NCBI GenBank assembly: GCA_022788085.1
Contig: JALEWA010000004.1
Location: 1-64,000 of the forward strand
Source of the DNA: Lachnospiraceae bacterium
Lineage (GTDB): Bacteria; Bacillota; Clostridia; Lachnospirales; Lachnospiraceae
DNA length: 64,000 nucleotides
Reading direction: 5' to 3'
Positions 19,670 to 36,266 of the stretch are shown piece after piece (position 1 is the stretch's first letter; each line of letters starts with the position of its first letter). The notes under the pieces were generated by a model. It made no database searches and was not told the DNA's origin. It saw only the letters and a list, made by a program, of their open reading frames with translations. The position numbers and the translations under genes were made by a program.

Positions 19670-20773
19670 CTATTTTAACATACTACTGTTATTTAGTAAC
19701 AATGTATTATACAAAAATAATATTTGTGTGTCCGGTTCTTCAAAATCCACATACTCACCAAGCAACGTTGAACTGATATATCTGGTATCCACTAAAATAA
19801 TCTCCTGATATGCCTCCAGTAATAATGGTGCAAGGCTGCTTGTAAAGGAATCACGGAAAATAATCAATCGTTTTTGTGTCCTTGCAAGAGGACTCTTAAT
19901 AACCTGCAGTGCCTGCGCACCGGAAAGATAAATGTTATACTTATCAAAACCGGCTTCCTCTTCACTAATATAAATGCCTTGCGTTTTGTCTGTTTCCAGA
20001 CTCCACTGGGTTGCCGTCTTAATAGTATCATTCGTAAGATAATATAAAGGTTCTGAGGAAAGAGGAAGCGCAGACTGTCCATAATAAACTCCATAGAATT
20101 CCGGTATTTCCTGTACTTCATAATCTGACATCAGATATTGTGTAAAGCCCATTTCCTCACCTAACCGCTCGACTGTCTGCTGTAAGCGCTCCTGCCGCCA
20201 ATGGGTATCCGTTTTGTAATAATCTTCCATGGTCAACGTATCCCAGATATCAATATACGTCATGTCGGTCAGCTTTTCCTGCATCAGGTTCTTCATTCTG
20301 CCATAGTCAAGGGAGGGATAACCGTTTTGTCCAGCCAGAAAATAATTCTTATCCGGAACAATTGCATAATAGACCTCTCCCTGTGGGAAATACTCATTTT
20401 TCAATGCCTGCATCTTTTCTGCTGCCTTCTCAACGGAAGATTCTCTTAATGGATATTCCAGCTTCCCTGCATATCCATCCACCACATAAATATCATTATT
20501 CTCCAACTGTCCCAGAACATCATATGCAAAGTATGCCTTCATTCTTCGAAGCTCCTCCCGGAATGGGAAATGGTCAAGGAGATAAGTCTCCAAATCCTCC
20601 ATATAGGACTTATCCTGTATATCGTTCCAGGTAAACTGTGGCATTACTGCAAGCTTTCTTCGTTCTGACACAGAGCTTGTTTCCTTAGGTCTCATGAAAA
20701 AGACAAGCATCAGACCAATCAGGCATGTAAAAAAACAGATGATGAGTATGTTATGTTTCCATCTTCTTTTCAT
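19670..20773 (-). CDS. DHHW-family / AlgJ-like protein (copy 1)
   Basis: 'LLDHFPFREELRRMKAYFA', 'YYKTDTHWRQE', 'LIIFRDSFTSSLAPLL'. Confidence 0.8.
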   Translation of the reverse strand: MKRRWKHNILIICFFTCLIGLMLVFFMRPKETSSVSERRKLAVMPQFTWNDIQDKSYMEDLETYLLDHFPFREELRRMKAYFAYDVLGQLENNDIYVVDGYAGKLEYPLRESSVEKAAEKMQALKNEYFPQGEVYYAIVPDKNYFLAGQNGYPSLDYGRMKNLMQEKLTDMTYIDIWDTLTMEDYYKTDTHWRQERLQQTVERLGEEMGFTQYLMSDYEVQEIPEFYGVYYGQSALPLSSEPLYYLTNDTIKTATQWSLETDKTQGIYISEEEAGFDKYNIYLSGAQALQVIKSPLARTQKRLIIFRDSFTSSLAPLLLEAYQEIILVDTRYISSTLLGEYVDFEEPDTQILFLYNTLLLNNSSMLK

Positions 20774-20784
20774 GCCAGCCCTCC

Positions 20785-22200
20785 TTAAAATCGAAAATAC
20801 AAAAACGGATTAAAAGAACCATCAATTAAATAAGCAGTACTTAGTATCATAATCACAACAATACCAACAGCTTTTACCATTTCCTCTAACACTTCATTTT
20901 GAAACAATCTAAAAACAAGGTTCCAAAGATAAGACGGCAGCGGCGTTGCACCAAGGATTGCTATGATTAAAATGCCAAGCCGGTTTCGTAACATATAGCC
21001 TGCTATTTCAAGCTGTGTCTTGTCTAACGTAGCACCTGGCAGCAGCGCCTTGATATCTCGAAATGCCATCTCCATATTCTCAGCATGGAAGATCAAAAAG
21101 CTGATGATAATGGCAATAACGACATAGATATGGCTGAAGATGGAAGTCTTTTTACCAAGATTTTTCTCGAGGATTAACAACATGCCAAAGAAAAGCCCCC
21201 AGCAAATAAAATTCCATCCTGCACCATGCCATAAGCCTGTCAGGAACCAAACTGTTAATAAATTGATATACCATCGAAACGGTTTTACGCGGTTTCCACC
21301 CATCGGAATGTAAACATAGTCACGGAACCATGCCCCAAGCGTCATATGCCATCTCCTCCAGAACTCCGTAAGGCTCCCTGATATAAATGGGTATCGAAAG
21401 TTCTCCGGGAAATGAAAGCCAAACATTCTTCCAAGTCCGATTGCCATATCTGAATAACCGGAAAAATCAAAATAAATCTGTAAGGAAACCGCTGCCGCAT
21501 ACCCCCAGGAAAGTAAAAGGCCTCGTGCTTCCGGTTCCATAACCTCTGCAACAAATTCTCCTAATACATTGGCAATCAGTACCTTTTTCCCTAGTCCGAT
21601 TACAAATCTTGTAATTCCTTGTGCAAGATCCTCCTTTGTTGTCCTTCTCTCCTCTAACTCCTGTTCTACATCACTATATCTGACGATTGGTCCGGCTATC
21701 AGCTGAGGAAACAGTGTCACAAAAGTTGCAAGAGATAAAAAGCTTTTTTGCAACTTCACTCTTCCCCGCCAGACATCAATACAATAGCTGGTAAGTTGGA
21801 AAGTATAGAAGGAAATGCCAATCGGAAGTGTTATTTTATCTGCATATTTAAGCCAGCCTGCCTTCCATGGCAGCCAGGGTGTCAACTCTCTCATAAAGAA
21901 TCCAATATACTTGAAATAAAAAAGAGAAGCAAACGGAATCAGTACAGACAACGCAAAAAGAGCCTTGCCTGCACCTGATTCCCTCTTCTTCTCCATAAAA
22001 TAAGTAAGGCTGTAAACAATGATAAGCTGAGCAAGCATGAGAAGTACATAAACCGGTTCTCCCCATGCATAAAACAGGCAGGATACAACACACAGAACAA
22101 AGTTCTTCCATGTAGTATCCTGTTTATAAGATACAGCTCCATATATTACTAATACAATCGGTAAAAAAAAATATAAAAACGTTATACTGGAAAAAAGCAT
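20785..22200 (-). CDS. MBOAT-family O-acyltransferase (copy 1)
   Basis: 'FRDYVYIPMGGNR', 'GLWHGAGWNFICWG', 'YFDFSGYSDMAIGLGRMFGF'. Confidence 0.93.
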   Translation of the reverse strand: MLFSSITFLYFFLPIVLVIYGAVSYKQDTTWKNFVLCVVSCLFYAWGEPVYVLLMLAQLIIVYSLTYFMEKKRESGAGKALFALSVLIPFASLFYFKYIGFFMRELTPWLPWKAGWLKYADKITLPIGISFYTFQLTSYCIDVWRGRVKLQKSFLSLATFVTLFPQLIAGPIVRYSDVEQELEERRTTKEDLAQGITRFVIGLGKKVLIANVLGEFVAEVMEPEARGLLLSWGYAAAVSLQIYFDFSGYSDMAIGLGRMFGFHFPENFRYPFISGSLTEFWRRWHMTLGAWFRDYVYIPMGGNRVKPFRWYINLLTVWFLTGLWHGAGWNFICWGLFFGMLLILEKNLGKKTSIFSHIYVVIAIIISFLIFHAENMEMAFRDIKALLPGATLDKTQLEIAGYMLRNRLGILIIAILGATPLPSYLWNLVFRLFQNEVLEEMVKAVGIVVIMILSTAYLIDGSFNPFLYFRF

Positions 22201-22215
22201 ATTGCTCTTTCTCCT

Positions 22216-22803
22216 TTACATAGGATTTGTCATCTCCAATGGCTCTGCAACTGTCATATTGCGGCTTTCAGCTACCTTAAGAGCCTCACCATAAACAAGA
22301 TCAGCAGTATCTGCTGCTGCCATGACAAAGAAAATATCATCGCCAAATCTTCCTGCAATCTGCTTTTCGGCAGTAACACAAATCCATTTTGCCGGGTTCA
22401 CATTATCCATAAGATTCTGTCTGATCTGTTCCACATCAGCTCCCTCCTGTGTGCGGATATACACTACAGAATAGGCTACAGAACCTATCATCGATTCTGA
22501 GATTGAAATACCCGCAATCTGGCTTACATCAGTCAGTCCTGTATTGTAGCTGACAACATCGGCATCCTGCAGATCGAGCTCCGTTGTTGTAATTGCGGAT
22601 GGAATCTGATCTGTCGGTATGTTCGCATACATTTCATCGAAAAATGCAGAAACTTCTTCTGCATTTTCCAGGTGAACCATAGCCTCGGCGTCCTGTGTCT
22701 GTGTCTGAACCTCGTCAGAGCTTCTATCTGTATTTCCACCACATGCTGTTACCATTCCTGTAAGCATTGCTGTGATTAACAATATTGCTATTTTCTTTTT
22801 CAT
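22216..22803 (-). CDS. DUF4358-like lipoprotein (copy 1)
   Basis: Lipobox 'LTGMVTAC'; CAGGAGG before ATG at 22803; resembles the lipoprotein at 25736-26257. Confidence 0.72.
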   Translation of the reverse strand: MKKKIAILLITAMLTGMVTACGGNTDRSSDEVQTQTQDAEAMVHLENAEEVSAFFDEMYANIPTDQIPSAITTTELDLQDADVVSYNTGLTDVSQIAGISISESMIGSVAYSVVYIRTQEGADVEQIRQNLMDNVNPAKWICVTAEKQIAGRFGDDIFFVMAAADTADLVYGEALKVAESRNMTVAEPLEMTNPM

Positions 22804-22832
22804 CCTGATATCCTCCTGAGTCATCTGTTTTT

Positions 22833-22859
22833 GTAACTATTCAGTACCCTCGCAGTTAC
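22833..22859. repeat. Short palindromic element GTAACT-n15-AGTTAC
   Basis: GTAACTATTCAGTACCCTCGCAGTTAC read directly. Confidence 0.45.
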
Positions 22860-23078
22860 TATTTTAAGTATTTCACATTTGTAAAATATTATACCTGAAG
22901 TGTCCTAACTTTATCATATTCTGACATGATATGCAACCTGGTATAATCCACATTAAATGCTATCAGATTCAGAGGCAAGTGAAACATATGGTTATTTATG
23001 TATATTTGATGTACAAGTTGGAAAACTATAGGTTGTTGCAGAACACAAAAATATACGCTGCACGGAAAGAGGTATCAT

Positions 23079-23264
23079 ATGACACAGTTATCAGAAAAAG
23101 AATTATCCTCTTTGCATGACCTTTTGTCAGAGGAAGAACTTCTGATCAAGAAGTTCAAAATGCTCGCACAGCAAACAACTGACCAGGAGGTTAAGAGCAA
23201 GCTTGAGGAGATTTCCACAAAGCATCAGGGACATTTCAATACCCTGTATTCCCAGTTAAAATAG
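23079..23264 (+). CDS. Small helical protein, possible spore-coat-associated
   Basis: 61 aa, amphipathic helical; precedes a CotF-like gene. Confidence 0.6.
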   Translation: MTQLSEKELSSLHDLLSEEELLIKKFKMLAQQTTDQEVKSKLEEISTKHQGHFNTLYSQLK

Positions 23265-23273
23265 CAGGAGTAA

Positions 23274-23297
23274 GTGTGAAAAATAAATTTTTCACAC
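23274..23297. promoter_or_regulatory. Intercistronic hairpin
   Basis: GTGTGAAAAAT-AA-ATTTTTCACAC, perfect 11-bp arms. Confidence 0.5.
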
Positions 23298-23348
23298 GCA
23301 AATTTGTGCCTGCGGCCCAAAGTTTGCAGGTACAGGAAAGGCATGGTT

Positions 23349-23636
23349 ATGAATATGACAACAGGAACAACTACTAATTTCTCAGAAAAGGAAATCCTTT
23401 CTGACGCCTTAAACAGTACCAAAGCAGCTACTAATAATTACAACTCCTTCTCAAATGAGTGTGTTCATGAAAATGTTCGTCAGGCAATGCTTCACTGTCT
23501 TGAACAGGAACACGATATTCAGCAGGATTTGTTCGAAATCATGCATGCCAAGGGTTACTACCCGACACCTGCAGCCGATGAGAAAAAAGTCCAGAATACC
23601 ATTCAAACATTTTCCCAATGTGCGAAAAACTGTTAA
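23349..23636 (+). CDS. Spore coat protein, CotF-like
   Basis: 'SEKEILSDALNSTKAATNNYNSFSNECVHENVRQAMLHCLEQEHDIQQDLFEIMHAKGYYPTPAADEKKV' resembles the CotF helical pattern. Confidence 0.75.
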   Translation: MNMTTGTTTNFSEKEILSDALNSTKAATNNYNSFSNECVHENVRQAMLHCLEQEHDIQQDLFEIMHAKGYYPTPAADEKKVQNTIQTFSQCAKNC

Positions 23637-23649
23637 GAAAACATCAAAA

Positions 23650-23669
23650 GGTGTCGCAAATGCGGCACC
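23650..23669. terminator. Terminator hairpin between convergent CotF-like gene and degV
   Basis: GGTGTCGC-AAAT-GCGGCACC with flanking A/T tracts. Confidence 0.65.
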
Positions 23670-23683
23670 CTTTATCATCTTAA

Positions 23684-24553
23684 TTATCTCTGATTTCCAA
23701 AATAGGAAATTACAAGAGTTCCGACTCCTGTATGGGAACCAACGGTCGGACTAATCGGCAGAATCCAGACAACTGCTTCCGGATATTTCTCCTTTACCAT
23801 ATCGGCAAGAATCTGTATGTCTTCTTCGTCATCTGAATGAGACAGGAAGACCTCCTTTGTATCCCATCCTTGTGTATTTTCCAGCATAGTATCAAATAAG
23901 ACTTTGATTGCCTTTTTGCGTCCTCTTGCCTTAGATATATTAGCCAGTTTACCCTCTTCATCAACATGCAGGACAGGCTTAATACTCAAGGCTGTTCCGA
24001 TGATTGCTGTAGACTTTGCCAGTCTTCCACCTCTTACCAGATGGAATAAATCATCTACGGTGAAATGGTGTACCACCTTCAGCTTGTTTTCTTCTATCCA
24101 CGCTGCAATTTCTTCCATACTCTTACCCTGCTTCTTCATCTCTACCGCATGATAAACAAGAAGTGCCTGACCACACTCTGCACTTAAGGAATCTACTACC
24201 ATAATCTTACATTCCGGATGTTCCTCCATGATTTCTCTTGCACACATGGCCGCATTGCTGTAACTGCTGCTCAGCCCGGAAGAAAAGCCAATGTGAAGAA
24301 TATCATAGCCATCCTCTGCCTGCTTACGCATCAGCTTACCAATATATTCCGGATTGGTCGCACTTGTTGTAGGCATCTTACCATTTCTGATACTATTATA
24401 AAATTCCTTATCTGTCAGTTCTTTGCCAAGATCCATACCATATTCTTCACCATCTATAATATAATGTAACGGATGAATTGCTATGCGATTCTCTTTCGCA
24501 TATTCCTCTGGCAAACTTGCCGTAGAATCTGTAGAAATCAAAAAATCTCTCAT
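23684..24553 (-). CDS. DegV-family protein (fatty-acid binding)
   Basis: 'MRDFLISTDSTASLPEEYAKENRIAIHPLHYIIDGEEYGMD', 'PTTSATNPEYIG', 'HIGFSSGLSSSYSNA'. Confidence 0.92.
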   Translation of the reverse strand: MRDFLISTDSTASLPEEYAKENRIAIHPLHYIIDGEEYGMDLGKELTDKEFYNSIRNGKMPTTSATNPEYIGKLMRKQAEDGYDILHIGFSSGLSSSYSNAAMCAREIMEEHPECKIMVVDSLSAECGQALLVYHAVEMKKQGKSMEEIAAWIEENKLKVVHHFTVDDLFHLVRGGRLAKSTAIIGTALSIKPVLHVDEEGKLANISKARGRKKAIKVLFDTMLENTQGWDTKEVFLSHSDDEEDIQILADMVKEKYPEAVVWILPISPTVGSHTGVGTLVISYFGNQR

Positions 24554-24724
24554 ATATATATCCTTTCCCAAAAAAATCTAATTTTTTCCTTTTTCAGTAT
24601 ATGCATTTTTCTATTATAAATCAAGTTGAAAAAGTTAAGATAAAATGCTAAAATGTAAACTGAATTACATATTATGTAATCATGTACCACAAGAGGGAAC
24701 AAGGGGAGTGAAGTAAGAAGTATT

Positions 24725-25723
24725 ATGAAGAAAAAATTATTAGCAAACAACCTGATAACAACTGGTATGATTTTTGCACTAGTGGCCTCTAATCCCGCAA
24801 CATCCTATGTATTTGCGGCAGAAAATACCACGTTGGAGCAATCCGCCAGTACCACAACACAAACAGATATGACCCTTGAGATGCAGGAAACGGCAACAAC
24901 ACAGGAAGTTACTGACATCCCGGTAATATCAGAAGAAGAAATCGATGCTTATTTTAAAGATACAGTCTTTGTTGGTGACTCTATTATGCTTGGCTTTCGT
25001 AATTACTGTATGAAACAAAAGGATTCTTTTCTAAACGATATTCAGTTTCTTGCAGCAGGAAGCTTTTCTGTTAATAACGCTTTATGGGATGTTACCGCGA
25101 AAAGCGTTCATCCTGTCTACAAAGGACAAAAACGCCAGGTATGGGAATCCATTTCCATGATGAATGCGAAAAAAGTATTCTTATTCTTTGGAATGAACGA
25201 TCTGAATATTTCCGGTCTGGAAGGAACATGCGAGAAATATAAGGAATTAATCAGTAAAATCAAAGAAAAAAGTCCTGATGTTGAAATCCATATCATAAGT
25301 ATGACCTATACCCTGAAGGGTGCAGGCAAGGGAAAGCTTAAAAATGACACAATTCGTGAATTCAATGAACTTTTACAGGAAATGGCTTCTGAAAATGGAT
25401 GGGGATTTCTGGATATGGCTACTCCACTTTCTGATGAAAACGGTGACCTTAAAGCAGCATACTGCAGCGATGGCTTTGTACATCAGTCAAGAGCTGCCTA
25501 TGATGTATGGACTACTGTGATTCGTGATTATGCACGTGCACAACTTAACGGAACTACCGAATATCCTGCTGGCACTTCCGAAGCCGAGGAATGCCCGGAA
25601 ACATCTACCACAGAATTACAAACAGATGAATCTGAAGACACAAATAATAAGAATACCACGCAGGGAAAAAAAACAGAAGTCAGACTCTCTGCCGGCTTTT
25701 CTGCCCAGACTACTACAGAATAA
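24725..25723 (+). CDS. Secreted SGNH/GDSL-type hydrolase
   Basis: Signal peptide, 'DTVFVGDSIMLGFRNY', 'FFGMNDLNI', 'CSDGFVHQSRAAYDVW'; Thr/Glu-rich tail. Confidence 0.82.
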   Translation: MKKKLLANNLITTGMIFALVASNPATSYVFAAENTTLEQSASTTTQTDMTLEMQETATTQEVTDIPVISEEEIDAYFKDTVFVGDSIMLGFRNYCMKQKDSFLNDIQFLAAGSFSVNNALWDVTAKSVHPVYKGQKRQVWESISMMNAKKVFLFFGMNDLNISGLEGTCEKYKELISKIKEKSPDVEIHIISMTYTLKGAGKGKLKNDTIREFNELLQEMASENGWGFLDMATPLSDENGDLKAAYCSDGFVHQSRAAYDVWTTVIRDYARAQLNGTTEYPAGTSEAEECPETSTTELQTDESEDTNNKNTTQGKKTEVRLSAGFSAQTTTE

Positions 25724-25735
25724 GGAGAAATCATT

Positions 25736-26257
25736 GTGAAAAGAACAACTTTAAATAAATATGCCATTATACTGTCCTGTACTTTGCTGTTAGGAGGCTG
25801 CTCACAGGCTGCACCTGCTGAATCAACCTCTGCAGGCACTACTACAGTACAGATGGAAAACCCATCCAAGGAAGCAAAGTCAATTGCAGATATCTATGAT
25901 GAGATTGCTGCAAATGTTACACTTTCTTCACCTGTTGCTATGGATGATGACTTTATCTCAAACTATTATGGCATTGATGCTTCTACCCTGGAGGAATATG
26001 TCTTCTCTATGTCAGAGGATGCCACTTCTGCAGAAACAATTATCATCATGAAAGCAAAGGATGCTTCCAATATAAGTTCCTTAAGTGATTGTCTTCAGGT
26101 AGTTGTTGATGAGAAAAAGAATGAGATGGAAAATTATCTTCCTGAACAGTTTGCAATTGTAGAAAAAAGTTCTGTAAAGACAAAGGATAATTATGTCTGG
26201 CTCGTTATTTCTGAAAATGCAGATGATATCAATAAAATTATCGAAGCTGACCTTTAA
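25736..26257 (+). CDS. DUF4358-like lipoprotein (copy 2)
   Basis: Lipobox 'LLLGGC'; 'IADIYDEIAANVTLSSPVAMDDDFISNYYGIDASTLEEYVFSMS'. Confidence 0.78.
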   Translation: MKRTTLNKYAIILSCTLLLGGCSQAAPAESTSAGTTTVQMENPSKEAKSIADIYDEIAANVTLSSPVAMDDDFISNYYGIDASTLEEYVFSMSEDATSAETIIIMKAKDASNISSLSDCLQVVVDEKKNEMENYLPEQFAIVEKSSVKTKDNYVWLVISENADDINKIIEADL

Positions 26258-26274
26258 TCATCCGGAGGATAATC

Positions 26275-27690
26275 ATGGTTTTTAGTAGTATTCCATTTTT
26301 ATTTTTCTTTTTACCATTATGCATGATCTTATATTTTGCAGTCCCATTTTCTTTGAAAAATGGGATTTTGCTTATTTTCAGTCTTATTTTTTATGCCTGG
26401 GGAGAGCCGGTTTATATTCTTCTCATGTTTTTTGCCTCTGCAGTTGATTTCATAAATGGACTCCTTATGGAGCGCTATGGCAATACAAAGAAAAAGCGAA
26501 CCTTCTTTTTATGCTGTTCGGTCACCATCAATCTTTCCGTTTTAGCATTCTTTAAATACGCTGATTTTCTTATCATGAATATAAACGGACTGCTCGGAAC
26601 AGATTTTTCACCACTTGGTCTTGGATTACCGGTGGGAATCAGCTTTTTTACCTTCCAGACGATGAGTTATATCATTGATTTATATCGTGGTGAAGTGGAA
26701 ACTGAGCATAATTACTTTACCTACCTTACCTACGTATCCATGTTCCCACAGCTTGTCGCCGGTCCTATTGTACGTTTTGCTGATATTAATGCCCAACTGC
26801 ATAAAAGAACATTGAAGCGTTCTGAATTTGAGGATGGTTTGCTTCGTTTCATGCAGGGTCTGTTCAAAAAAGTACTGATTGCTAACCAGATTGGCGCTCT
26901 TTGGGAGGAACTTCGTATTTGGGAAGCCTCTCAGATTTCTGTCACAGCAGCATGGCTCGGTGCAGCATGTTTTACCCTGCAGCTTTATTTTGATTTTAGC
27001 GCCTACAGCGATATGGCTATTGGTATGGGCTGGATGTTAGGCTTTCATTTCAATGAGAACTTTAATTATCCTCTCTCTTCCATTTCTGTTACAGACTTTT
27101 GGAGACGTTGGCATATTTCTCTTTCTACGTGGTTTCGTGACTATGTATATATTCCTCTTGGCGGTAACAGAAAAGGTGTAGCAAAGCAGCTTCGAAACAT
27201 GGCTGTCGTATGGTTCTTAACCGGTCTTTGGCATGGTGCTGCATGGAATTTTGTTCTTTGGGGTGTCTATTATGGTGTCCTTCTTGCTCTTGAGAAATTT
27301 GTCTGGGGAAAGGGATTGGCAAAGCTTCCACGCATTTTTCAACATTTTTATGCCATTTTGATTGTCGTATTTGGATTTGTTATCTTTACCTTTGATGATA
27401 TGACTGCCTTACAGTCTTACTTAAGCTCTATGTTTGGTCTTGCAGGCAATCCGCTTTTTGGAACGGAAGTTTTATGGTACTTAGGAAACTATGGTGTCAT
27501 CCTTCTTGTTGCATGTATCCTGGCATTTCCGTTTTATCCATGGCTTAAGGACAGGTTAATGGTTTCGGGCAATCATGTCAGGCTTGCAGTTTCTGCTGTT
27601 TCCTTGTTTGGCTATATCGCCCTGTTCCTGCTTACAACTGCATGCCTTGTAAATGACACCTATAACCCATTCCTCTACTTCCGGTTCTAA
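26275..27690 (+). CDS. MBOAT-family O-acyltransferase (copy 2)
   Basis: 'FRDYVYIPLGGNRKG', 'GLWHGAAWNFVLWG'; same C-terminus 'NPFLYFRF' as copy 1. Confidence 0.94.
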   Translation: MVFSSIPFLFFFLPLCMILYFAVPFSLKNGILLIFSLIFYAWGEPVYILLMFFASAVDFINGLLMERYGNTKKKRTFFLCCSVTINLSVLAFFKYADFLIMNINGLLGTDFSPLGLGLPVGISFFTFQTMSYIIDLYRGEVETEHNYFTYLTYVSMFPQLVAGPIVRFADINAQLHKRTLKRSEFEDGLLRFMQGLFKKVLIANQIGALWEELRIWEASQISVTAAWLGAACFTLQLYFDFSAYSDMAIGMGWMLGFHFNENFNYPLSSISVTDFWRRWHISLSTWFRDYVYIPLGGNRKGVAKQLRNMAVVWFLTGLWHGAAWNFVLWGVYYGVLLALEKFVWGKGLAKLPRIFQHFYAILIVVFGFVIFTFDDMTALQSYLSSMFGLAGNPLFGTEVLWYLGNYGVILLVACILAFPFYPWLKDRLMVSGNHVRLAVSAVSLFGYIALFLLTTACLVNDTYNPFLYFRF

Positions 27691-27713
27691 ACAAACGGAG
27701 TGGGTAATGTAAA

Positions 27714-28859
27714 ATGGAGGACAAAATGACTCATAATAATAAGATTCGAACCCTGACAGCAGGACTACTTACAGGCGGCATTTTTGCACTGTCTGTCACC
27801 TTTCTGCTGTCACCAAAGCAGGAATTCTCGGATAATGAGAACCGCTATCTTGCAAAGGCTCCTACTTTCGGTTGGGAGGCAATCAAAAGCGGACAATATA
27901 TGGAAGACTTAAGTTCATGGCTATCTGACCACTTTCCTTTTCGCGATTTCTTTATGGGCTTAAAAGCAGATACCGAAATTGCCCTTGGAAAAAGAGAAAT
28001 CAATAACGTCTACATTGCAGATGATGATTTTCTGATTGAAGTCTATGAAGCTCCTGTCAATACGGAACGTATTGCCGATACCTTCCATAAATTCTATGAG
28101 AAAATCGACACGGAACGTATTGATACAAGGCTCATGCTTATACCAACGGCAAGCTTCATCTATGCAGATAAGCTTCCTTCCTATGCACCTACACGCAATC
28201 AGATGGACACAGCAGAAGCTATCTATGACAAAGCCGGGATTCCATCCATTGACTGCACAAGCTTCTTATTAAACGCTTCTGATACGGAACAGCTATACTA
28301 TCGTACTGATCATCACTGGACCACTACAGGTGCTTATCAGGGATATCTTGCATACTGTGAAGCGAAAGGTTTGACTCCTGTTTCTCTGGATAATATGGAG
28401 GCAGAGACTGTTACCAATGAATTCTATGGAACTATTTATTCTAAGGTAAATGACTACAGCCTCATGGGAGACTCGATTACTATTTATGCCAATCCTGAAG
28501 ATTCCCTGACGGTTAACTATACTGATACAAAGGAAGTAACAGATTCGCTCTACAATCTTAATTATGTAGACAAAAAGGATAAGTACTCTCTATTTCTTAA
28601 CAATCTCCATACCTTGATAGAGATTACAAATGAAACAGCTGAATCTGATCGCGAGCTTGTATTAATTAAGGACAGCTATGCGAACTCTCTTGTTCCATTT
28701 CTAACACACCATTATAAGAAAATATATGTGTTTGATACAAGATACTATAAGGAAGGACCATCTTCCTTTATTAAGGAGCATCCGGGAGTAACTGATGTCC
28801 TGCTTCTATACAACATGAATACCTTAGATACCGATTCCGGTATTCGTGGTATCTATTAA
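27714..28859 (+). CDS. DHHW-family / AlgJ-like protein (copy 2)
   Basis: 'LSDHFPFRDFFMGLKADTEIALGKREINNVYIADD', 'YYRTDHHWTTTGAYQGY', 'VLIKDSYANSLVPFL'. Confidence 0.88.
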   Translation: MEDKMTHNNKIRTLTAGLLTGGIFALSVTFLLSPKQEFSDNENRYLAKAPTFGWEAIKSGQYMEDLSSWLSDHFPFRDFFMGLKADTEIALGKREINNVYIADDDFLIEVYEAPVNTERIADTFHKFYEKIDTERIDTRLMLIPTASFIYADKLPSYAPTRNQMDTAEAIYDKAGIPSIDCTSFLLNASDTEQLYYRTDHHWTTTGAYQGYLAYCEAKGLTPVSLDNMEAETVTNEFYGTIYSKVNDYSLMGDSITIYANPEDSLTVNYTDTKEVTDSLYNLNYVDKKDKYSLFLNNLHTLIEITNETAESDRELVLIKDSYANSLVPFLTHHYKKIYVFDTRYYKEGPSSFIKEHPGVTDVLLLYNMNTLDTDSGIRGIY

Positions 28860-28894: not shown

Positions 28895-31800
28895 TTATGC
28901 TTTTTGTTTCTTTTCTTTTTTCGTTTTTGTCCCCTTCTTTTTGTGCTTTTTAATCATAGAATGCAAGAGCTTTAACAGAATAATGCCTGCAGCGACTCCG
29001 GCTACCATTGCAACATATTTCCATATACTTGAACTTTCCTCAACGATACAGAAGGTTCCTGATGTTCCCGTCATTTCAACCTGTACATATTGTCCTCTTA
29101 CCTTGCATGGAATCTGCTGCCATTCTCCATTCTGATATAACCAGACTTGTGCTTTTTCGAATGGATTCAATAATCTTAATGCAAAGGTCTCAATCTCTGC
29201 TTTTCCACTATTTTCAAGTAAGATATCATATACAGTATATGCATGATTATCAACAATATCCATAGATGGAATCTTCTCACTTGTGTATGCATTCAGCTTT
29301 GCATCCTCTGTAAAAGTACCTTCAACATAAGCAATCGCTTTCTCTTGCCTCTCCTCACCTGCCTGTATAGTGCTTCTCCTGCTACTCTCTACTACTGTTA
29401 CATTTTCCTTATATTCACCTTCTATCACAAGATTTCCTGTCATAATTTCTCCTGATACATCAGGCCATACACAGTAATACCCTTCTTTCTTCGGTGCCTC
29501 CGGGAAATTTAAGTTATCAAGGCTGTCTCCGTATTTTATCTCCTGTGTTCCAAGATAAATATCATCTACTTTATAAGTAACCTTCAGGTGCCAGAAATCA
29601 TTCGGTAAACCGGTTACCGTCAGAAGCTCCTCATAAGTTATCGGTTCTGCTTCTCCAATAAAACTGATATTATCCACTCCATAAATATCGTCTCCAACAT
29701 AGAAATTATTGGATACCTTACTCTCTTGTGGCTCCTTCTCATCCTCGTCCTTGGTTGCTACCTGACCGGCTATTGCACCAAAACGTCCTTCTGCCTCAAG
29801 AAGATTAACCATTGTATAGCAATCGGAAATGGTATCACCATAACCAGCAATACCGCCTACATTCTTATTACCTGATATCGTACATAGTGCATAACAATTG
29901 CGGATTAATGTGAGTGACTCACCACTGATACCACCTACATAGTCGCCACCAGTGCTTTCTACAGAGCCGTATGCTTTACAGTCTGTTACAATTCCATGAT
30001 TCATAAAGCCTACAATACCGCCTGCACCATTCTTCTTTGCAGTTACAAAGCCATAATTGGAGCTTCCCTTAATAATACACTTTGTTGTATAGCTTCCGCC
30101 CAATCCCTTTTCGCTTGAGCCTGCCGCATTATCCTCCGGATCCTCTTCATCAATTGCCATGGAACCTGCGATACCACCTACATCAATATCTCCCTTGACT
30201 ACTCCTTTGTTAATACTGTCATCTACTCTTCCTTGGGTAGCTGCTTCTATTTCTTCCTCGGAAACATCAGAATAGAAGCCACTTTTATCTGTCGAACTAT
30301 AATCCTCCATCTTATCAACAAAAAGATTAAATATTTTATTTATCTGATCATTGATTGCAGACAGATCCTGATTAATCACATCCGAATAACTGGAAGCATG
30401 ATCACTAATACTTCCAATCGTATCTGACATTCCCTGAAGCTGCTCACGGAATGCATCCATATTCTCATCAAAATCGCCTCCAAGCTTAGCAATTTGAATG
30501 TCTTCCTGTGCGTTCAGGTAATCAACAATACCTCTCACTCCGTTGCCTGCATACTTCAAATAATCTATAATACTCTGTATATTATTTGTAGCCTGAGCAA
30601 TATCTTTATTAGCAGCTTTTGCTGCATCTGACATATATGGACCATATATCGTAGCAATCAGCGATAAATCACTTAGAATTTCGGTTGCTGCTGTTCCTGA
30701 TACTGTAATACTTTCTGATAAATCTACTATCAGCTTTTCAAGCTCATCCTTTTCATCAGCAGTCAGTTCATTATAAGACTTTATGGAACCATCATCTTTC
30801 TGTAGCAGTACCTTAATCTGATTCATCTGCATGGATATATTGTTAGACTGACCGTTGAGTGTTCCTGCATTTGCATTAATCCTGTCCATGGCATCCTGTG
30901 CAGAGGCTTCCTGACTTTGCTTCGAAAAGGTAATCGCGGCCTTTGCCGGTTCCTGATTCTTCGTAAGATAGAACTCATACGTAAAACTTCCCGCCTCGGC
31001 TTTTGCCAGTGAAATCGCATTTCCGTTTTTATCCGTCACTGACGGTGTCTGGCTTACCGTATAACCGGAATCCGGTGTTACTTTCAATATAACTTTAGTA
31101 CCATCTCCATCCTTTCCTGAATACGCTGCACTACCACCAACATTGGATTGCATAACAAGAAGGATTGGTTCAAAGATTGCTGTAATCTCCACATCATCAT
31201 CCGGCATTACAAAGCTATAATGCTTATTCGAAGTCTGATATGAAATCGGATTTCCATTACGATCACTTACTCTTAATTCCTTTAAACGATAGCCACTTTT
31301 TGAAACGGTAATCACTTCTATCTTCTCTCCTGCAGCAGCTTGAGAGCTTTGTGTAGTTACGGTACCACCTGTACCACCTACACTGCTGATATCATAACTT
31401 CCTGTCTTTTTTTGGAAGCTTCCTGTTATTTTTATCGGTGTTGTCATATTATCACCATTTAATACATAGCGATAACTATTATCACCAACTGCCTCCATGT
31501 CACTTCTATTTACATTTTTTGTATTTCCATTTGCCCCGGTAGCAACAAAACTGATTCCACTATCAACCTCGTAACCGGAGGATGGTGATAAAAGGATTTC
31601 ATACGCGTTTCCTACCGAAGTGCTTCTTGTGGCTGCTACATTACCTCCCACGTTAGATACACCATAAATAGCATCATCTGTCTCCGGTGTATACTTGAAT
31701 ACAACCTGAACCTCCTTATCACCGGCTGTCATAGTAAAGTAATATTCTCCAGGTGTAGTACTGGATTCCGTAAGCATTACAGATCCGCTATTTCCTACTG

Positions 31801-33790
31801 CCTGAATGGAATCCACTGAATATTTATAAGAACTTGTCCTGACACGAACAGTAACCTTATCGCCAACAGCAGCGTAAGAGCTTTCTGTCTGAATACTTCC
31901 TCCTGTTGATGATACTGTTGTTATCTTATATGCATTTGCTTTCTTCTGAAAGCTTCCTTCCACCAAAACAGGTTCTGTACTTGGCTGATATCCACTTTTG
32001 TTTACAATCGCTTTATAAACACTGCTATCACTTCCATCCGGTATCAAAGTAACCGTATTACTTCCTCCTATGGAAACAGTGTGGCTGTTTCCCAACTCAT
32101 AGCCACTATAAGCTCTTGCTTCTATTTCTATGGTACCATCATTTTTATTCGTGACTGTTATGTTTCCTCCTTCATTGGATTTTGCAATAAAGGCACCAAC
32201 ATAAGTATATTCAGCTGCAACTAATATATTTTCCTTTGGCATGGTAAAGGAATATTGATTGGAGGCTGTTTGGGAAATGGCTATTTTTTTCCCATTTGCA
32301 TCTGTAACAGTGAGACTCTTTATTTCATATCCATTATCTGCCTTTACCGTAATGGTTACCGAATCACCTTCCGCCGGATTCATATTATCAGCCTGTAAGG
32401 TTCCTCCTATACTAGAAGCAAGAGAAAGACGCTTATAGTCTGTTTCCTGGTACTGGTTTCCTGACAACTTTCCTGAAACATTCAAATCCTCATTCAGTTT
32501 CTTCAGTGTATTGTTAAAATCTGACATGGAATTTCCTGCTGCGTCTGCATTATTCATAACACCAGGCAGTAATTCCGTCACATGGTCTATCCTTCCTGCT
32601 AAAGAATTGATCTGGTCTGTGTTCTTATCCATATATTCTGAAAGAGAATCTGATACATACTCACTGACGCCAATTGCATTATCTGAATATGCCTGAAGTA
32701 CATCGACATCATTCTTAATGACATCCTTACCTTCTGTCATATCATCAAGTGTCTTCTCAATCATGTCATGAAGCGTATCAATTTCCTTTCGCACTGAATC
32801 TGCTTCCTGATACTCTATGTATGGCTCCATCTGGCCAACAATGCCACCAATGTCCTTTCTTCCATATACCGTTCCAAGATTGGTGCATTGTGATACAACA
32901 CCGGACTGTCTTCCAACAATACCTCCAATATTATATCCGGTGTGTTCGTAGCCAATGATACCACTATTGGTACAACGCGTAACAGTTCCTCTGGAAAAAC
33001 CTGCAATTCCACCCGTATCGACTCCGCTTTGAAGCTTTACGTCTTTGGAATTATCTGCAATATCCATAATTAACTCTGTACTGATTTCATCATCTTCCTC
33101 TACCCACTTTCCACTATCATTAATATTGGAATAGTTCGTACAGTTGTCAATCACACCATAGTTTTTTCCGGCAATTCCACCTGTATAATAATATCCGATG
33201 ATTCTTCCCTTCACAGTACACTTATGAATCATTCCGGTTGCTTCATTAATACCGGCAATTCCACCTGTTTCATTCTTACCGTTTACACTTCCCTGAAAGG
33301 TACTATTACGGATTACTCCTTTATTTACACCGCAAATACCACCAATTCTCTGCTTCTCGTCCTCTGATGTAACACTTCCCTTAAGTGTCAGGTTGGCTAT
33401 GGTTCCTGTTTCACCAACATACCGAAATAATCCGGCAACATATCCTTCTCCATCATATTGAAAGCCTGAAATGGTATGTCCGTTTCCATCAAATATACCA
33501 TTGAATACAGAAATATTCTTAAACTCTGAACCACTAACATTAATATCCTGTGTAAGAGTTACATACTTATTGGTGGACCAGGCATCTACATAACAATTCT
33601 TAGCTAATTGAATCAGTTCTTCAACCGAATCTATTTCTATTTTCTCATACTCTGTTTGCTGTGTTTCTTCCACCTGTGTTTTAGGTTCCTCTTTTGCAAA
33701 AGTAATTCCCATAGGCAGCAGACTACTCATCAACGTCAATACCAGTGCAAAACTTAGTATCTTATTTCTCACTATCATTCTCTTCTTCAC
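28895..33790 (-). CDS. 1631-aa surface protein: signal peptide, GLUG-like repeats, coiled-coil, InlB B-repeat-like domains, coiled-coil, GLUG-like repeats, C-terminal TM and basic tail
   Basis: Repeated 'NxGxVxGxxxxGGIAGxNxG' units at both ends; repeats of the 'GGTVTTQSSQAAAGEKIEVxxxxxxGYxLKxLxVxDxNG...YSFVMPDDDVEITAIF' type in the middle. Confidence 0.85.
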   Translation of the reverse strand: MKKRMIVRNKILSFALVLTLMSSLLPMGITFAKEEPKTQVEETQQTEYEKIEIDSVEELIQLAKNCYVDAWSTNKYVTLTQDINVSGSEFKNISVFNGIFDGNGHTISGFQYDGEGYVAGLFRYVGETGTIANLTLKGSVTSEDEKQRIGGICGVNKGVIRNSTFQGSVNGKNETGGIAGINEATGMIHKCTVKGRIIGYYYTGGIAGKNYGVIDNCTNYSNINDSGKWVEEDDEISTELIMDIADNSKDVKLQSGVDTGGIAGFSRGTVTRCTNSGIIGYEHTGYNIGGIVGRQSGVVSQCTNLGTVYGRKDIGGIVGQMEPYIEYQEADSVRKEIDTLHDMIEKTLDDMTEGKDVIKNDVDVLQAYSDNAIGVSEYVSDSLSEYMDKNTDQINSLAGRIDHVTELLPGVMNNADAAGNSMSDFNNTLKKLNEDLNVSGKLSGNQYQETDYKRLSLASSIGGTLQADNMNPAEGDSVTITVKADNGYEIKSLTVTDANGKKIAISQTASNQYSFTMPKENILVAAEYTYVGAFIAKSNEGGNITVTNKNDGTIEIEARAYSGYELGNSHTVSIGGSNTVTLIPDGSDSSVYKAIVNKSGYQPSTEPVLVEGSFQKKANAYKITTVSSTGGSIQTESSYAAVGDKVTVRVRTSSYKYSVDSIQAVGNSGSVMLTESSTTPGEYYFTMTAGDKEVQVVFKYTPETDDAIYGVSNVGGNVAATRSTSVGNAYEILLSPSSGYEVDSGISFVATGANGNTKNVNRSDMEAVGDNSYRYVLNGDNMTTPIKITGSFQKKTGSYDISSVGGTGGTVTTQSSQAAAGEKIEVITVSKSGYRLKELRVSDRNGNPISYQTSNKHYSFVMPDDDVEITAIFEPILLVMQSNVGGSAAYSGKDGDGTKVILKVTPDSGYTVSQTPSVTDKNGNAISLAKAEAGSFTYEFYLTKNQEPAKAAITFSKQSQEASAQDAMDRINANAGTLNGQSNNISMQMNQIKVLLQKDDGSIKSYNELTADEKDELEKLIVDLSESITVSGTAATEILSDLSLIATIYGPYMSDAAKAANKDIAQATNNIQSIIDYLKYAGNGVRGIVDYLNAQEDIQIAKLGGDFDENMDAFREQLQGMSDTIGSISDHASSYSDVINQDLSAINDQINKIFNLFVDKMEDYSSTDKSGFYSDVSEEEIEAATQGRVDDSINKGVVKGDIDVGGIAGSMAIDEEDPEDNAAGSSEKGLGGSYTTKCIIKGSSNYGFVTAKKNGAGGIVGFMNHGIVTDCKAYGSVESTGGDYVGGISGESLTLIRNCYALCTISGNKNVGGIAGYGDTISDCYTMVNLLEAEGRFGAIAGQVATKDEDEKEPQESKVSNNFYVGDDIYGVDNISFIGEAEPITYEELLTVTGLPNDFWHLKVTYKVDDIYLGTQEIKYGDSLDNLNFPEAPKKEGYYCVWPDVSGEIMTGNLVIEGEYKENVTVVESSRRSTIQAGEERQEKAIAYVEGTFTEDAKLNAYTSEKIPSMDIVDNHAYTVYDILLENSGKAEIETFALRLLNPFEKAQVWLYQNGEWQQIPCKVRGQYVQVEMTGTSGTFCIVEESSSIWKYVAMVAGVAAGIILLKLLHSMIKKHKKKGTKTKKEKKQKA

Positions 33791-36266
33791 CGGTATTCAC
33801 CTCCTCTGTCATTTCCTTATCTTCCAGCAATTCCTCTTCCATCTGCTCAATCTTACCTATCTTAATCAGTGCATTTACATCACCTTTCACAACCGCATGA
33901 ATCTCACCGGTTACAAGTCCATTAATCTGTCCCTGTACATAACCGTCTACCCTGACAAGTCCTGATGTCTTCTCCAGCTTTATTGGTACAGAGACCTTAA
34001 AGGATGTCTTCTCAATAATCTTCTCTCCAAGCAGAAGAATCTGTGGAAGGATAAACATTACAATAATAATAGAAATAATGGTTCCACGACCAAGACACTG
34101 TCCAATACCGCAAATTGCACCATCAGAAGAAAGCTGTCCGATTAAAATACCTGCAAGTGCAAGCATGGAACCGGAAGTAACAATGGTCGGGAATGCAAAA
34201 TTCATTGTTTCAATAATAGCATCCTTTCTTGACATCTTATCCTTCAGTTCCATATATCGCCCTGAAATAACGATAGCATAGTCGATATTTGCACCCATCT
34301 GGATTGAACTTACAATCAGATAGCTCATGAAAAACAGATTATTCTTCTGTATTGCCGGAAACGCAAAATTAATCCAGATAGCTCCCTGAATAACAACGAT
34401 CAGTAAAACAGGCATTCCCGCTGACATAAAGGTAAATAATAATACTGCCAAAACAGCAAGAATAGAAACTACCGAAACAACAGTATTGTCTACATCAAAC
34501 GTCTTCTTCAAATCATACTGACTGGTAGATTCTCCAACTACCAGTATCGTTCCATCATAATACTTTGCTGCGATTTCATGCATCTTATCAAGAAAAGCAA
34601 AGGTTTCCTCTCCCTCTTCCGGAAGATTTAAGTAAATCATCATTCTGCTGTAATCCGGTCCCTGGAGCTGGTCAAGTGCTAACTGCATTGCATCATGAGC
34701 TTCCTCCAGTGTATCATTAAGCTCATCATCCAGTGTCACATACCCCTCCTGCACCTCATCATACAGGAACATAAACATATCAATCAATGGTACACTGTAG
34801 GTAGACAATCCATTAATAATTTTCGCATAGTTCTCATCGTCTACTGCATATGCCATATAAAGCAACTCTGAAACCTCATAATCCAGTTCTAACAGTTCCG
34901 AGAATTCTCTTGCCGTCAGCTTATCAGTCAGCATATAGCCATCCATAGCCTCCGTATTGGATAATCCCATGGTATAATCGATTTCATCATAGGTTTCAAG
35001 CTCATTTAAGAGCCTTCTCTCCTTCTCATAGTCACCAGCCGGAACCACTAAAGCTACAAAATTGGTTTCTCCAAAGCTCTCAACAATCAACTCATCTGCA
35101 AGCTGTGTCTCATTTTGCACAGGAGTCTCTATCATGGTATAACCATATACAAAAGGACATTTTGCCTGAATCGTGTAAGCCACAATAACTAATACAACAA
35201 ACAATGGTGGCATAATATATTTTGTCGCATAAGCAAACTTTCCTACAAAAGGAATCTTAGGTACAAAATTCTTATGCTTTGTCTTATCCATCAGATTACC
35301 AAAAACCATGATCAGTCCCGGCATCAAAAGAAATACGGCAAGTAAGCTCAATAAAATTGCCTTAATCAAACAGATTGCCATATCCTTACCAATACCAAAC
35401 TGCATGAACATCATGGCAATCAGACCACCTATAGTCGTAAGAGAGCTGGAAGTAATCTCAGGAATTGCCTTACTCAATGCAATAATATCCGCTTCCCTAA
35501 TCGGAAGATTCTCATGCTCCTCTTTATATCGATTACAAAAGATAACTGCGTAGTCAATGGATAAGGCAAGCTGCAATACCACCGTTACCGAATTTGATAC
35601 AAATGAAATTTTTCCTAATAAGTAATTTGTTCCATTTGAGATCAGTGCTGCTGCAATAAATGTCAATAAAAGTACCGGAACCTCTGCATAAGTCTGTGAG
35701 GTGAAAATAAGTACTGTCACAACGATAATCGCTACCAGAACACTTACCGTATTCATCTCACTGGCAATTTGCTCTGCACTCGCATCACCCATGCTTGTCG
35801 ACACATAAATATCATAATCAGAAAGCATTTCCTTAATGCTGTCCAATGCCTCTAATGCTCTGTCATCCTTTTCTTCATACCGAAAGGTTATATCATAAAG
35901 CGCCGAAAAGTTATTATAATAGTCCTTGGAATTTTCAAAATTCAACATGGAGACTTCCGGCATATTTCGTATGTCATCTGCTATTCTTTCTGCTTCCTCA
36001 TACGTGATATTCGTTGCCATGACCTTTGCAGAGCCATAGGTAATAAACTGCTCCTCCATCAAATCCAAGCCCTGGCTTGTTTCAGAGCTGTCAGGAAGAT
36101 AGGCAGGAAGTGAATTCTCTACCTCTACCCAGTTCATTGATATCACAGAGAAAATAATGACAATTCCAAATAACAGAAAAAACAAATTTCTTCTGTCTAC
36201 AATAAAGGTTGCAACCTTTATCATAAAATTGCTCTCTTCACCCATTCCTTTATTTTCTTTGCTCAC
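33762..36266 (-). CDS. MMPL/RND-superfamily transporter with cytoplasmic C-terminal extension
   Basis: 834 aa, about 12 TM in two halves; 'ALSIDYAVIFCNRYKEE' and 'GANIDYAVVISGRYMEL'-type motifs (second reads 'GANIDYAIVISGRYMEL'). Confidence 0.9.
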   Translation of the reverse strand: MSKENKGMGEESNFMIKVATFIVDRRNLFFLLFGIVIIFSVISMNWVEVENSLPAYLPDSSETSQGLDLMEEQFITYGSAKVMATNITYEEAERIADDIRNMPEVSMLNFENSKDYYNNFSALYDITFRYEEKDDRALEALDSIKEMLSDYDIYVSTSMGDASAEQIASEMNTVSVLVAIIVVTVLIFTSQTYAEVPVLLLTFIAAALISNGTNYLLGKISFVSNSVTVVLQLALSIDYAVIFCNRYKEEHENLPIREADIIALSKAIPEITSSSLTTIGGLIAMMFMQFGIGKDMAICLIKAILLSLLAVFLLMPGLIMVFGNLMDKTKHKNFVPKIPFVGKFAYATKYIMPPLFVVLVIVAYTIQAKCPFVYGYTMIETPVQNETQLADELIVESFGETNFVALVVPAGDYEKERRLLNELETYDEIDYTMGLSNTEAMDGYMLTDKLTAREFSELLELDYEVSELLYMAYAVDDENYAKIINGLSTYSVPLIDMFMFLYDEVQEGYVTLDDELNDTLEEAHDAMQLALDQLQGPDYSRMMIYLNLPEEGEETFAFLDKMHEIAAKYYDGTILVVGESTSQYDLKKTFDVDNTVVSVVSILAVLAVLLFTFMSAGMPVLLIVVIQGAIWINFAFPAIQKNNLFFMSYLIVSSIQMGANIDYAIVISGRYMELKDKMSRKDAIIETMNFAFPTIVTSGSMLALAGILIGQLSSDGAICGIGQCLGRGTIISIIIVMFILPQILLLGEKIIEKTSFKVSVPIKLEKTSGLVRVDGYVQGQINGLVTGEIHAVVKGDVNALIKIGKIEQMEEELLEDKEMTEEVNTGEEENDSEK

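Follow-up and report, generated by a model that had tools for sequence, protein, structure and literature searches.

In many bacteria, acylation of the cell envelope gives protection against lysozyme, cationic peptides, and autolysins, and it keeps surface layers in place. To our knowledge, although the pairing of an MBOAT protein with an SGNH-type enzyme is well described, most of its acceptors and accessory parts in Clostridia are not. Here we analyze two gene cassettes of this kind in a 64,000-nucleotide stretch of a Lachnospiraceae bacterium (GenBank assembly GCA_022788085.1, contig JALEWA010000004.1, positions 1 to 64,000 of the forward strand; hereafter, the window). Each encodes an MBOAT, an SGNH enzyme of the DHHW family, and a small lipoprotein, which is of the DUF4358 type in the plus-strand cassette (LPA) and of a type without a family name in the minus-strand cassette (LPB). 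The small protein is our main subject.

Comparison with described systems

Like PatA1/PatB1, the O-acetyltransferase of the Bacillus cereus secondary cell wall polysaccharide, the cassettes have an MBOAT gene followed by a gene for a DHHW-family SGNH enzyme with KDS, DxRY, and TDHHW blocks, and PatB1 (PDB 5v8d) is the closest characterized structure by sequence. Unlike in PatA1/PatB1, a DUF4358 or LPB gene precedes the MBOAT, and the plus cassette also adds a GDSL enzyme. The plus cassette has the same kinds of parts as the alginate acetylation system of Pseudomonas aeruginosa (AlgI-AlgJ-AlgX-AlgF): both combine an MBOAT with two SGNH-like proteins and a small accessory protein that is exported. 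AlgF is a mediator of protein–protein interactions with no activity of its own (PMC10641220). However, it consists of two beta-sandwich domains (PMC10641220), whereas DUF4358/LPB proteins have a small alpha/beta domain, and with no relation detected between them the likeness is an analogy only. For an SGNH contact such as AlgF has, the natural DHHW fusions described below are the one line of evidence, and they suggest that DUF4358/LPB proteins may make it.

The Dlt system (DltB-DltX-DltD) also combines an MBOAT, an SGNH-like enzyme, and a small third protein, in this case DltX, which carries the shuttle motif. The cassettes differ in that the MBOAT itself carries the shuttle peptide, no dltA- or dltC-like genes adjoin them, and their MBOATs score only 171.6 and 159 bits against the DltB family (TIGR04091), far below its curated cut-off of 375 bits. 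Finally, the clostridial cellulose locus ccsZABHI provides an MBOAT-DHHW pair (CcsH and CcsI) within Clostridia, but no cellulose synthase or GH5 gene was seen adjoining either cassette.

Linkage of the small protein to MBOAT and DHHW genes

We consider it highly likely that the DUF4358/LPB protein is a dedicated partner of the MBOAT-DHHW pair. The first-pass annotation had proposed the lipoprotein as a conserved, unrecognized partner and had suggested counting its adjacency to the two enzymes; that neighborhood turned out not to be rare, and three samples support the proposal. The first comprised 150 genomes of the same family, in which adjacency was scored on DHHW rather than MBOAT. Here, 58 of 81 DUF4358 places have a same-strand DHHW within 6 kb, compared to ∼0.24 expected by chance, and 49 of those 58 leave a gap of 1.2–3 kb, which is room for one MBOAT. 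As a control, none of 62 lipoprotein matches that involve the signal peptide only lies near a DHHW. (Profile searches of genome contigs used an alignment of the LPB subfamily, because the whole-family DUF4358 set was too diverse.)

The second sample consisted of 80 loci from named genomes, fetched on LPB sequence alone and thus blind to neighbors, with 71 LPB genes. An MBOAT gene follows directly on the same strand in 59 cases; 49 of these continue MBOAT-DHHW and six end at a contig edge after the MBOAT. In five further cases a DHHW follows the LPB directly, with no MBOAT between. The third sample was phylum-wide. All 24 genomes with DUF4358 have a DHHW, compared to five of 44 genomes without it (Fisher p 8e-14), and all 24 have an MBOAT match, compared to 11 of 44 (p 3e-10). 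These p-values are inflated by shared ancestry, and the 24 genomes span ∼20 families.

Gene fusions provide a different type of linkage. Three natural proteins combine a lipobox, DUF4358, and DHHW (L138_5 from G009:C19, L139_5 from G021:C17, and L140_6 from G002:C60). All three retain TDHHW and DxRY, and one retains KDS too. At the L139 locus, the fused protein occupies the slot of the DUF4358 gene, ahead of an MBOAT and then a DHHW. The DUF4358 gene also frequently forms a pair with an SGNH gene, including where the MBOAT-DHHW genes are located elsewhere.

Some other arrangements were seen. A conserved two-gene SGNH-DUF4358 unit occurs distant from any MBOAT-DHHW at L081–L085, L089, and L098. 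At L207, L215, and L216 (also L183 and L201), LPB is followed by a short DHHW-like protein of ∼300–330 amino acids without an MBOAT; the surroundings at L215 include DUF3048, YbeY/DAGK, and NADH dehydrogenase-like genes. DUF4358 genes at L094:5668-7452 and L096:5320-7061 adjoin a transglutaminase-like gene and have neither an MBOAT nor a DHHW in the vicinity.

Relationship between the two lipoproteins

Both lipoproteins had initially been called DUF4358-like. This holds for LPA (PF14270, 86.2 bits), which is the single DUF4358 match in the whole genome, but LPB has no DUF4358 match in Pfam up to E 1, and indeed no match to any Pfam family. We therefore do not file LPB as a family member. Judged by its sequence, it is a distant, divergent relative of DUF4358, because profile comparison, bridging sequences, and predicted topology all point in that direction. 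Pairwise BLASTP between LPA and LPB is borderline (23% identity, E 0.006). Profile–profile comparison gives a probability of 97 (E 4.5e-11), and still 95 (E 7.5e-9) after removal of the signal peptides. An iterative search seeded with LPB alone, with the first 30 residues (the signal peptide) cut and an inclusion threshold of 1e-6, reaches LPA at E 7e-17. Proteins in genomes G094 and G400 form a bridge in that they match both LPB and DUF4358. Similarity of signal peptides as the source of the link is ruled out by its survival of the 30-residue cut and is also countered by the signal-peptide-only control given above.

The AlphaFold2 models of LPA and LPB have the same predicted topology, an H-H-E-E-H-E-E-H alpha/beta domain, except that the helix region is longer in LPA. 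Model confidence (pLDDT) is 87 for LPB (∼98 for the domain) and 93 for the LPA domain. It should be noted that the LPA model was built on an alignment mostly of LPB sequences, so that its likeness to the LPB model is not independent evidence. Neither model had a match at E 0.001 or better in a fold search of the PDB, no solved relative of the lipoproteins was found by sequence, and a search of viral contigs returned no relative of LPA.

A tether to the membrane is constant among the forms of the small protein, but the lipoprotein type is not universal: 30 of 50 DUF4358-type members are anchored by a transmembrane segment and lack a lipobox (these loci were picked partly by context and are thus biased, and the three samples described above are better for counts). 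In LPB, Cys149 is invariant beside invariant Lys146 and Trp147 (ORF numbering; ORF, open reading frame), and DUF4358 members lack a counterpart of this cysteine. LPB records range over Lachnospiraceae, Oscillospiraceae, Christensenella, Bacilli, and Erysipelotrichaceae. Two tandem domains occur in L171_5, L190_10, L070_6, and L071_8, some with long acidic or Pro-rich linkers, and the LPBs of L067 and L181 have long Pro/Thr-rich spacers downstream of the lipobox.

Layout and enzymes of the two cassettes

ORFs were called mechanically, and the twin cassettes on opposite strands, with the gene orders first reported for them, were recovered in the window (Table 1). The LPB start at 22803 is correct, with AGGAGG 8 nt upstream; a longer ORF to 22824 is merely mechanical. 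Genes are separated by 11–23 bp within both cassettes (LPB-MBOAT 15 bp and MBOAT-DHHW 11 bp in the minus cassette; SGNH-LPA 12 bp, LPA-MBOAT 17 bp, and MBOAT-DHHW 23 bp in the plus cassette).

Table 1. Coordinates of the cassettes and their features in the window. Pfam cut-offs are 27 bits for MBOAT, 25 bits for DHHW, and 25 bits for DUF4358.
Feature	Position	Strand	Basis
Minus cassette: lipoprotein (LPB), MBOAT, DHHW	22803-19670	-	
LPB, divergent relative of DUF4358 with lipobox Cys, spacer, and alpha/beta domain	22216..22803	-	Ribosome-binding site; profile link; AlphaFold2 model
MBOAT O-acyltransferase, minus cassette; LTGLWHGAGWNF His motif	20785..22200	-	Pfam PF03062, 96 bits; LPB-linked clade
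FLYFRF C-terminal hexapeptide of minus MBOAT; predicted acyl-shuttle tyrosine motif F-x-Y-x-x-F	20788..20805	-	Sequence; PMC12148441
DHHW-family SGNH acyltransferase, minus cassette; RDS, DTRY, TDTHW blocks	19670..20773	-	Pfam PF14286, 60 bits
Plus cassette: SGNH, DUF4358 lipoprotein (LPA), MBOAT, DHHW	24725-28859	+	
GDSL/SGNH enzyme, first gene of plus cassette; GDS, GxND, DGxxH blocks	24725..25723	+	Pfam PF13472, 65 bits
LPA, DUF4358 lipoprotein	25736..26257	+	Pfam PF14270, 86 bits; AlphaFold2 domain model
MBOAT O-acyltransferase, plus cassette; LTGLWHGAAWNF His motif	26275..27690	+	Pfam PF03062, 103 bits; DltB structures by sequence
FLYFRF C-terminal hexapeptide of plus MBOAT; predicted acyl-shuttle tyrosine motif	27670..27687	+	Sequence; PMC12148441
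DHHW-family SGNH acyltransferase, plus cassette; KDS, DTRY, TDHHW blocks	27714..28859	+	Pfam PF14286, 100 bits

By family and motif, the enzymes of both cassettes match MBOAT-SGNH polymer O-acyltransferases of the PatA1/PatB1 type. The MBOATs keep the catalytic His motif LTGLWHGAxWNF (residues 324 and 319 in the two proteins). Both indeed end in NPFLYFRF, as had been noticed, but this does not mark them as twins: PFLYFRF occurs in 105 of 129 MBOATs and represents a general shuttle motif, with the looser F-x-Y-x-x-F form present in 128 of 129 cassette MBOATs. In the Gram-negative PatA, acetylation occurs on the tyrosine of the corresponding C-terminal motif, from which the group is handed to the SGNH partner PatB, and the acyl-tyrosine shuttle has been argued to hold for MBOAT-SGNH pairs generally (PMC12148441).

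The three blocks defined for PatB1 (PMC9487903) are matched exactly in the plus DHHW (KDS319, DTRY341, and TDHHW198), for which the nearest solved structures are PDB 4nzk (E 3e-23) and B. cereus PatB1, 5v8d (E 4e-18). The minus DHHW has the conservative variants RDS307 (K to R) and TDTHW188 (H to T) along with DTRY329, and it retains the catalytic S, D, and second H. The additional GDSL/SGNH protein of the plus cassette is similar to the O-acetylesterase-like PDB 6njc and resembles lysophospholipase L1-type GDSL enzymes; its relatives conserve G84, D85, S86, G156, N158, D249, and H253.

Proposed mechanism and alternatives

Our best explanation, in which we have slightly more belief than doubt when it is taken as a whole, is that each cassette encodes an MBOAT-SGNH acylation machine with a DUF4358/LPB adaptor subunit. 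That these cassettes acylate an exported envelope polymer is very probable, and acetyl would be the likely group. From family membership and the motifs present, the MBOAT would draw on a cytoplasmic donor and load the acyl group onto the tyrosine in the FLYFRF at its own C-terminus, and the DHHW enzyme would accept it on its serine and transfer it to the polymer. The small protein, with a folded domain outside the membrane behind a spacer, may act as a noncatalytic adaptor that docks the SGNH enzyme or enzymes on the MBOAT and the polymer. The plus machine would then have one adaptor alongside its MBOAT and two SGNH enzymes, and the minus machine would be a simpler three-part form. Of the adaptor role itself, by analogy, we are about evenly persuaded. 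It is favored because the small protein lies outside the membrane, is fused to DHHW in some species, and is paired with an SGNH gene in others, and because the plus parts list equals the alginate acetylation set, in which AlgF mediates contacts.

Several points weigh against this explanation. Seven of the 71 LPB genes have no adjoining MBOAT or DHHW, genome G099 carries DUF4358 but has no MBOAT match, and at L154 (9986-11455) an LPB gene directly precedes a ROK gene, with MBOAT and DHHW absent between them. The adaptor role is argued from genetics and analogy, with no fold match in the PDB to add to them, and a polymer-binding or regulatory role predicts the same linkage. Also, PatA1/PatB1 of B. 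cereus is described without such a partner, so the small protein is not needed in every system.

The alternative that survives best, although we think it unlikely, is that the small protein is a tethered glycan-binding module that presents the polymer acceptor and sets specificity. A membrane tether plus spacer in every form would suit reach into the wall, and some LPB members have Pro/Thr-rich spacers or tandem domains. Fusion to DHHW would suit a binding domain, given that AlgX carries one, and separate lipoprotein families track separate MBOAT clades. However, the PDB fold search with both models showed no likeness to any solved carbohydrate-binding module.

It is quite improbable that the lipoprotein is an ordinary neighbor and that the MBOAT-DHHW pair acts alone, as PatA1/PatB1 does. 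Such a possibility would be consistent with the 54 of 127 DHHW places in the 150 same-family genomes that have no lipoprotein match within 6 kb, and with the in vitro activity of B. cereus PatB1 without a lipoprotein (PMC9487903), but it does not accommodate the linkage over ∼20 families, the complete phylum-wide co-occurrence, the fusions, and the private MBOAT clade. Marginally more doubtful still is a DltX-like acyl relay between the MBOAT and the SGNH enzyme. DltX provides a precedent for a small third protein serving as a relay (PMC12148441), and the invariant Cys149 of LPB, beside Lys146 and Trp147, could be read in the same way. The relay is unlikely because the MBOAT bears its own acyl-shuttle tyrosine, in a terminal motif said in the literature to replace DltX, and a cysteine missing from DUF4358 members cannot be a shared mechanism. 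Least probable of all is that the small protein is itself the acceptor, a surface protein acylated by the machine: there is one per cassette, on the correct side of the membrane, but the many DUF4358 members anchored without a lipobox leave no common lipid or N-terminal acceptor, and DHHW enzymes are known as glycan acyltransferases (PMC9487903). Thus, among the adaptor, relay, and acceptor roles raised in the first-pass annotation, the adaptor fits best and the other two are less likely.

A broader proposal is that DUF4358 and the unnamed LPB family make up a single superfamily, without a structural relative in the PDB, that gives the MBOAT-DHHW envelope acyltransferases of Gram-positive bacteria their dedicated third component; each MBOAT lineage would have its own lipoprotein type, and the small protein would decide which polymer or enzyme pair is served. 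We regard arguments for and against this proposal as balanced.

Origin of the cassettes

The two cassettes had been described as twins. The MBOATs and the DHHWs are clear paralogs (42% and 27% identity, respectively, between the plus and minus copies), but the MBOAT tree indicates that they are not recent duplicates. In a tree of 95 MBOATs, those linked to LPB form one clade with support of 99, and the plus MBOAT falls in a separate, DUF4358-linked clade. (Four unlabeled rows in the LPB-linked clade are from loci fetched by an LPB match in which the ORF caller dropped the LPB gene.) Of 38 genomes from the genus of the window, 35 carry LPB and 18 carry the plus lipoprotein, and the cassettes occur independently. 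Close head-to-head pairing was found only in the genome of the window and its two nearest species (G162 and G163); in the rest of the genus, the cassettes are on different contigs or one is present alone. The tree and this limited distribution rule out local duplication as the origin of the pair. At an independent locus (L200), two cassettes, one of either type, are arranged tail to tail. Because the LPB-linked MBOATs are one clade and the plus MBOAT lies elsewhere, the sequences place the cassettes as old, separate modules that met more than once and were here brought together recently. The separate clades and the independent occurrence in the genus also make it plausible that the two modules serve different polymers or conditions.

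One record in this set, L202, is titled uncultured Bacteroides sp., yet its MBOAT is identical to that of G094 (L061), a genome of the Lachnospiraceae family. The record is probably mislabeled or misbinned.

Genomic context

ECF (extracytoplasmic function) sigma factors govern envelope modification in other Firmicutes. In relatives from the genus (L141–L158), the LPB cassette is just downstream of genes for an ECF sigma factor and a short protein with a single membrane span, and these genes themselves follow another MBOAT-DHHW pair. Given these neighbors, a fair guess is that the LPB cassette may be linked to a cell-envelope stress response. The genome of the window has a further MBOAT-DHHW pair at L121 (G000:C223:1-8603), after which come genes for an ECF-like sigma factor and for a protein with a single span, possibly an anti-sigma factor.

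We found no direct support for the earlier suggestion that one cassette serves the vegetative cell and the other the spore. Of 47 good carrier genomes, 43 have SpoIVA, and at least five carriers that are at least 93% complete do not have it; because carriers only were counted, these numbers neither show nor exclude a spore role.

Between the cassettes are a gene with a CotF domain (spore coat type; 23352-23636) and a DegV gene, both identified with Pfam, and a small ORF of similar character (∼23080-23265) precedes the CotF-domain gene. A ROK-family gene lies 31 bp past the DHHW of the minus cassette. Beyond the plus cassette, on the minus strand (28895-36266), are genes for a putative repeat surface protein of 1631 amino acids and an MMPL/RND-like membrane protein of 834 amino acids.

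Significance

Among the open-licence papers searched, DUF4358 has one passing mention, and the link to MBOAT-DHHW genes may be noted elsewhere. The operons belong to gut Clostridia and probably attach acyl groups, likely acetyl, to polymers of the cell surface. The small protein, nearly always found with both enzymes across many genera, is probably an unrecognized third part of the machine, and such a place in the acylation machine makes the widespread DUF4358 and the unnamed LPB family directly testable.

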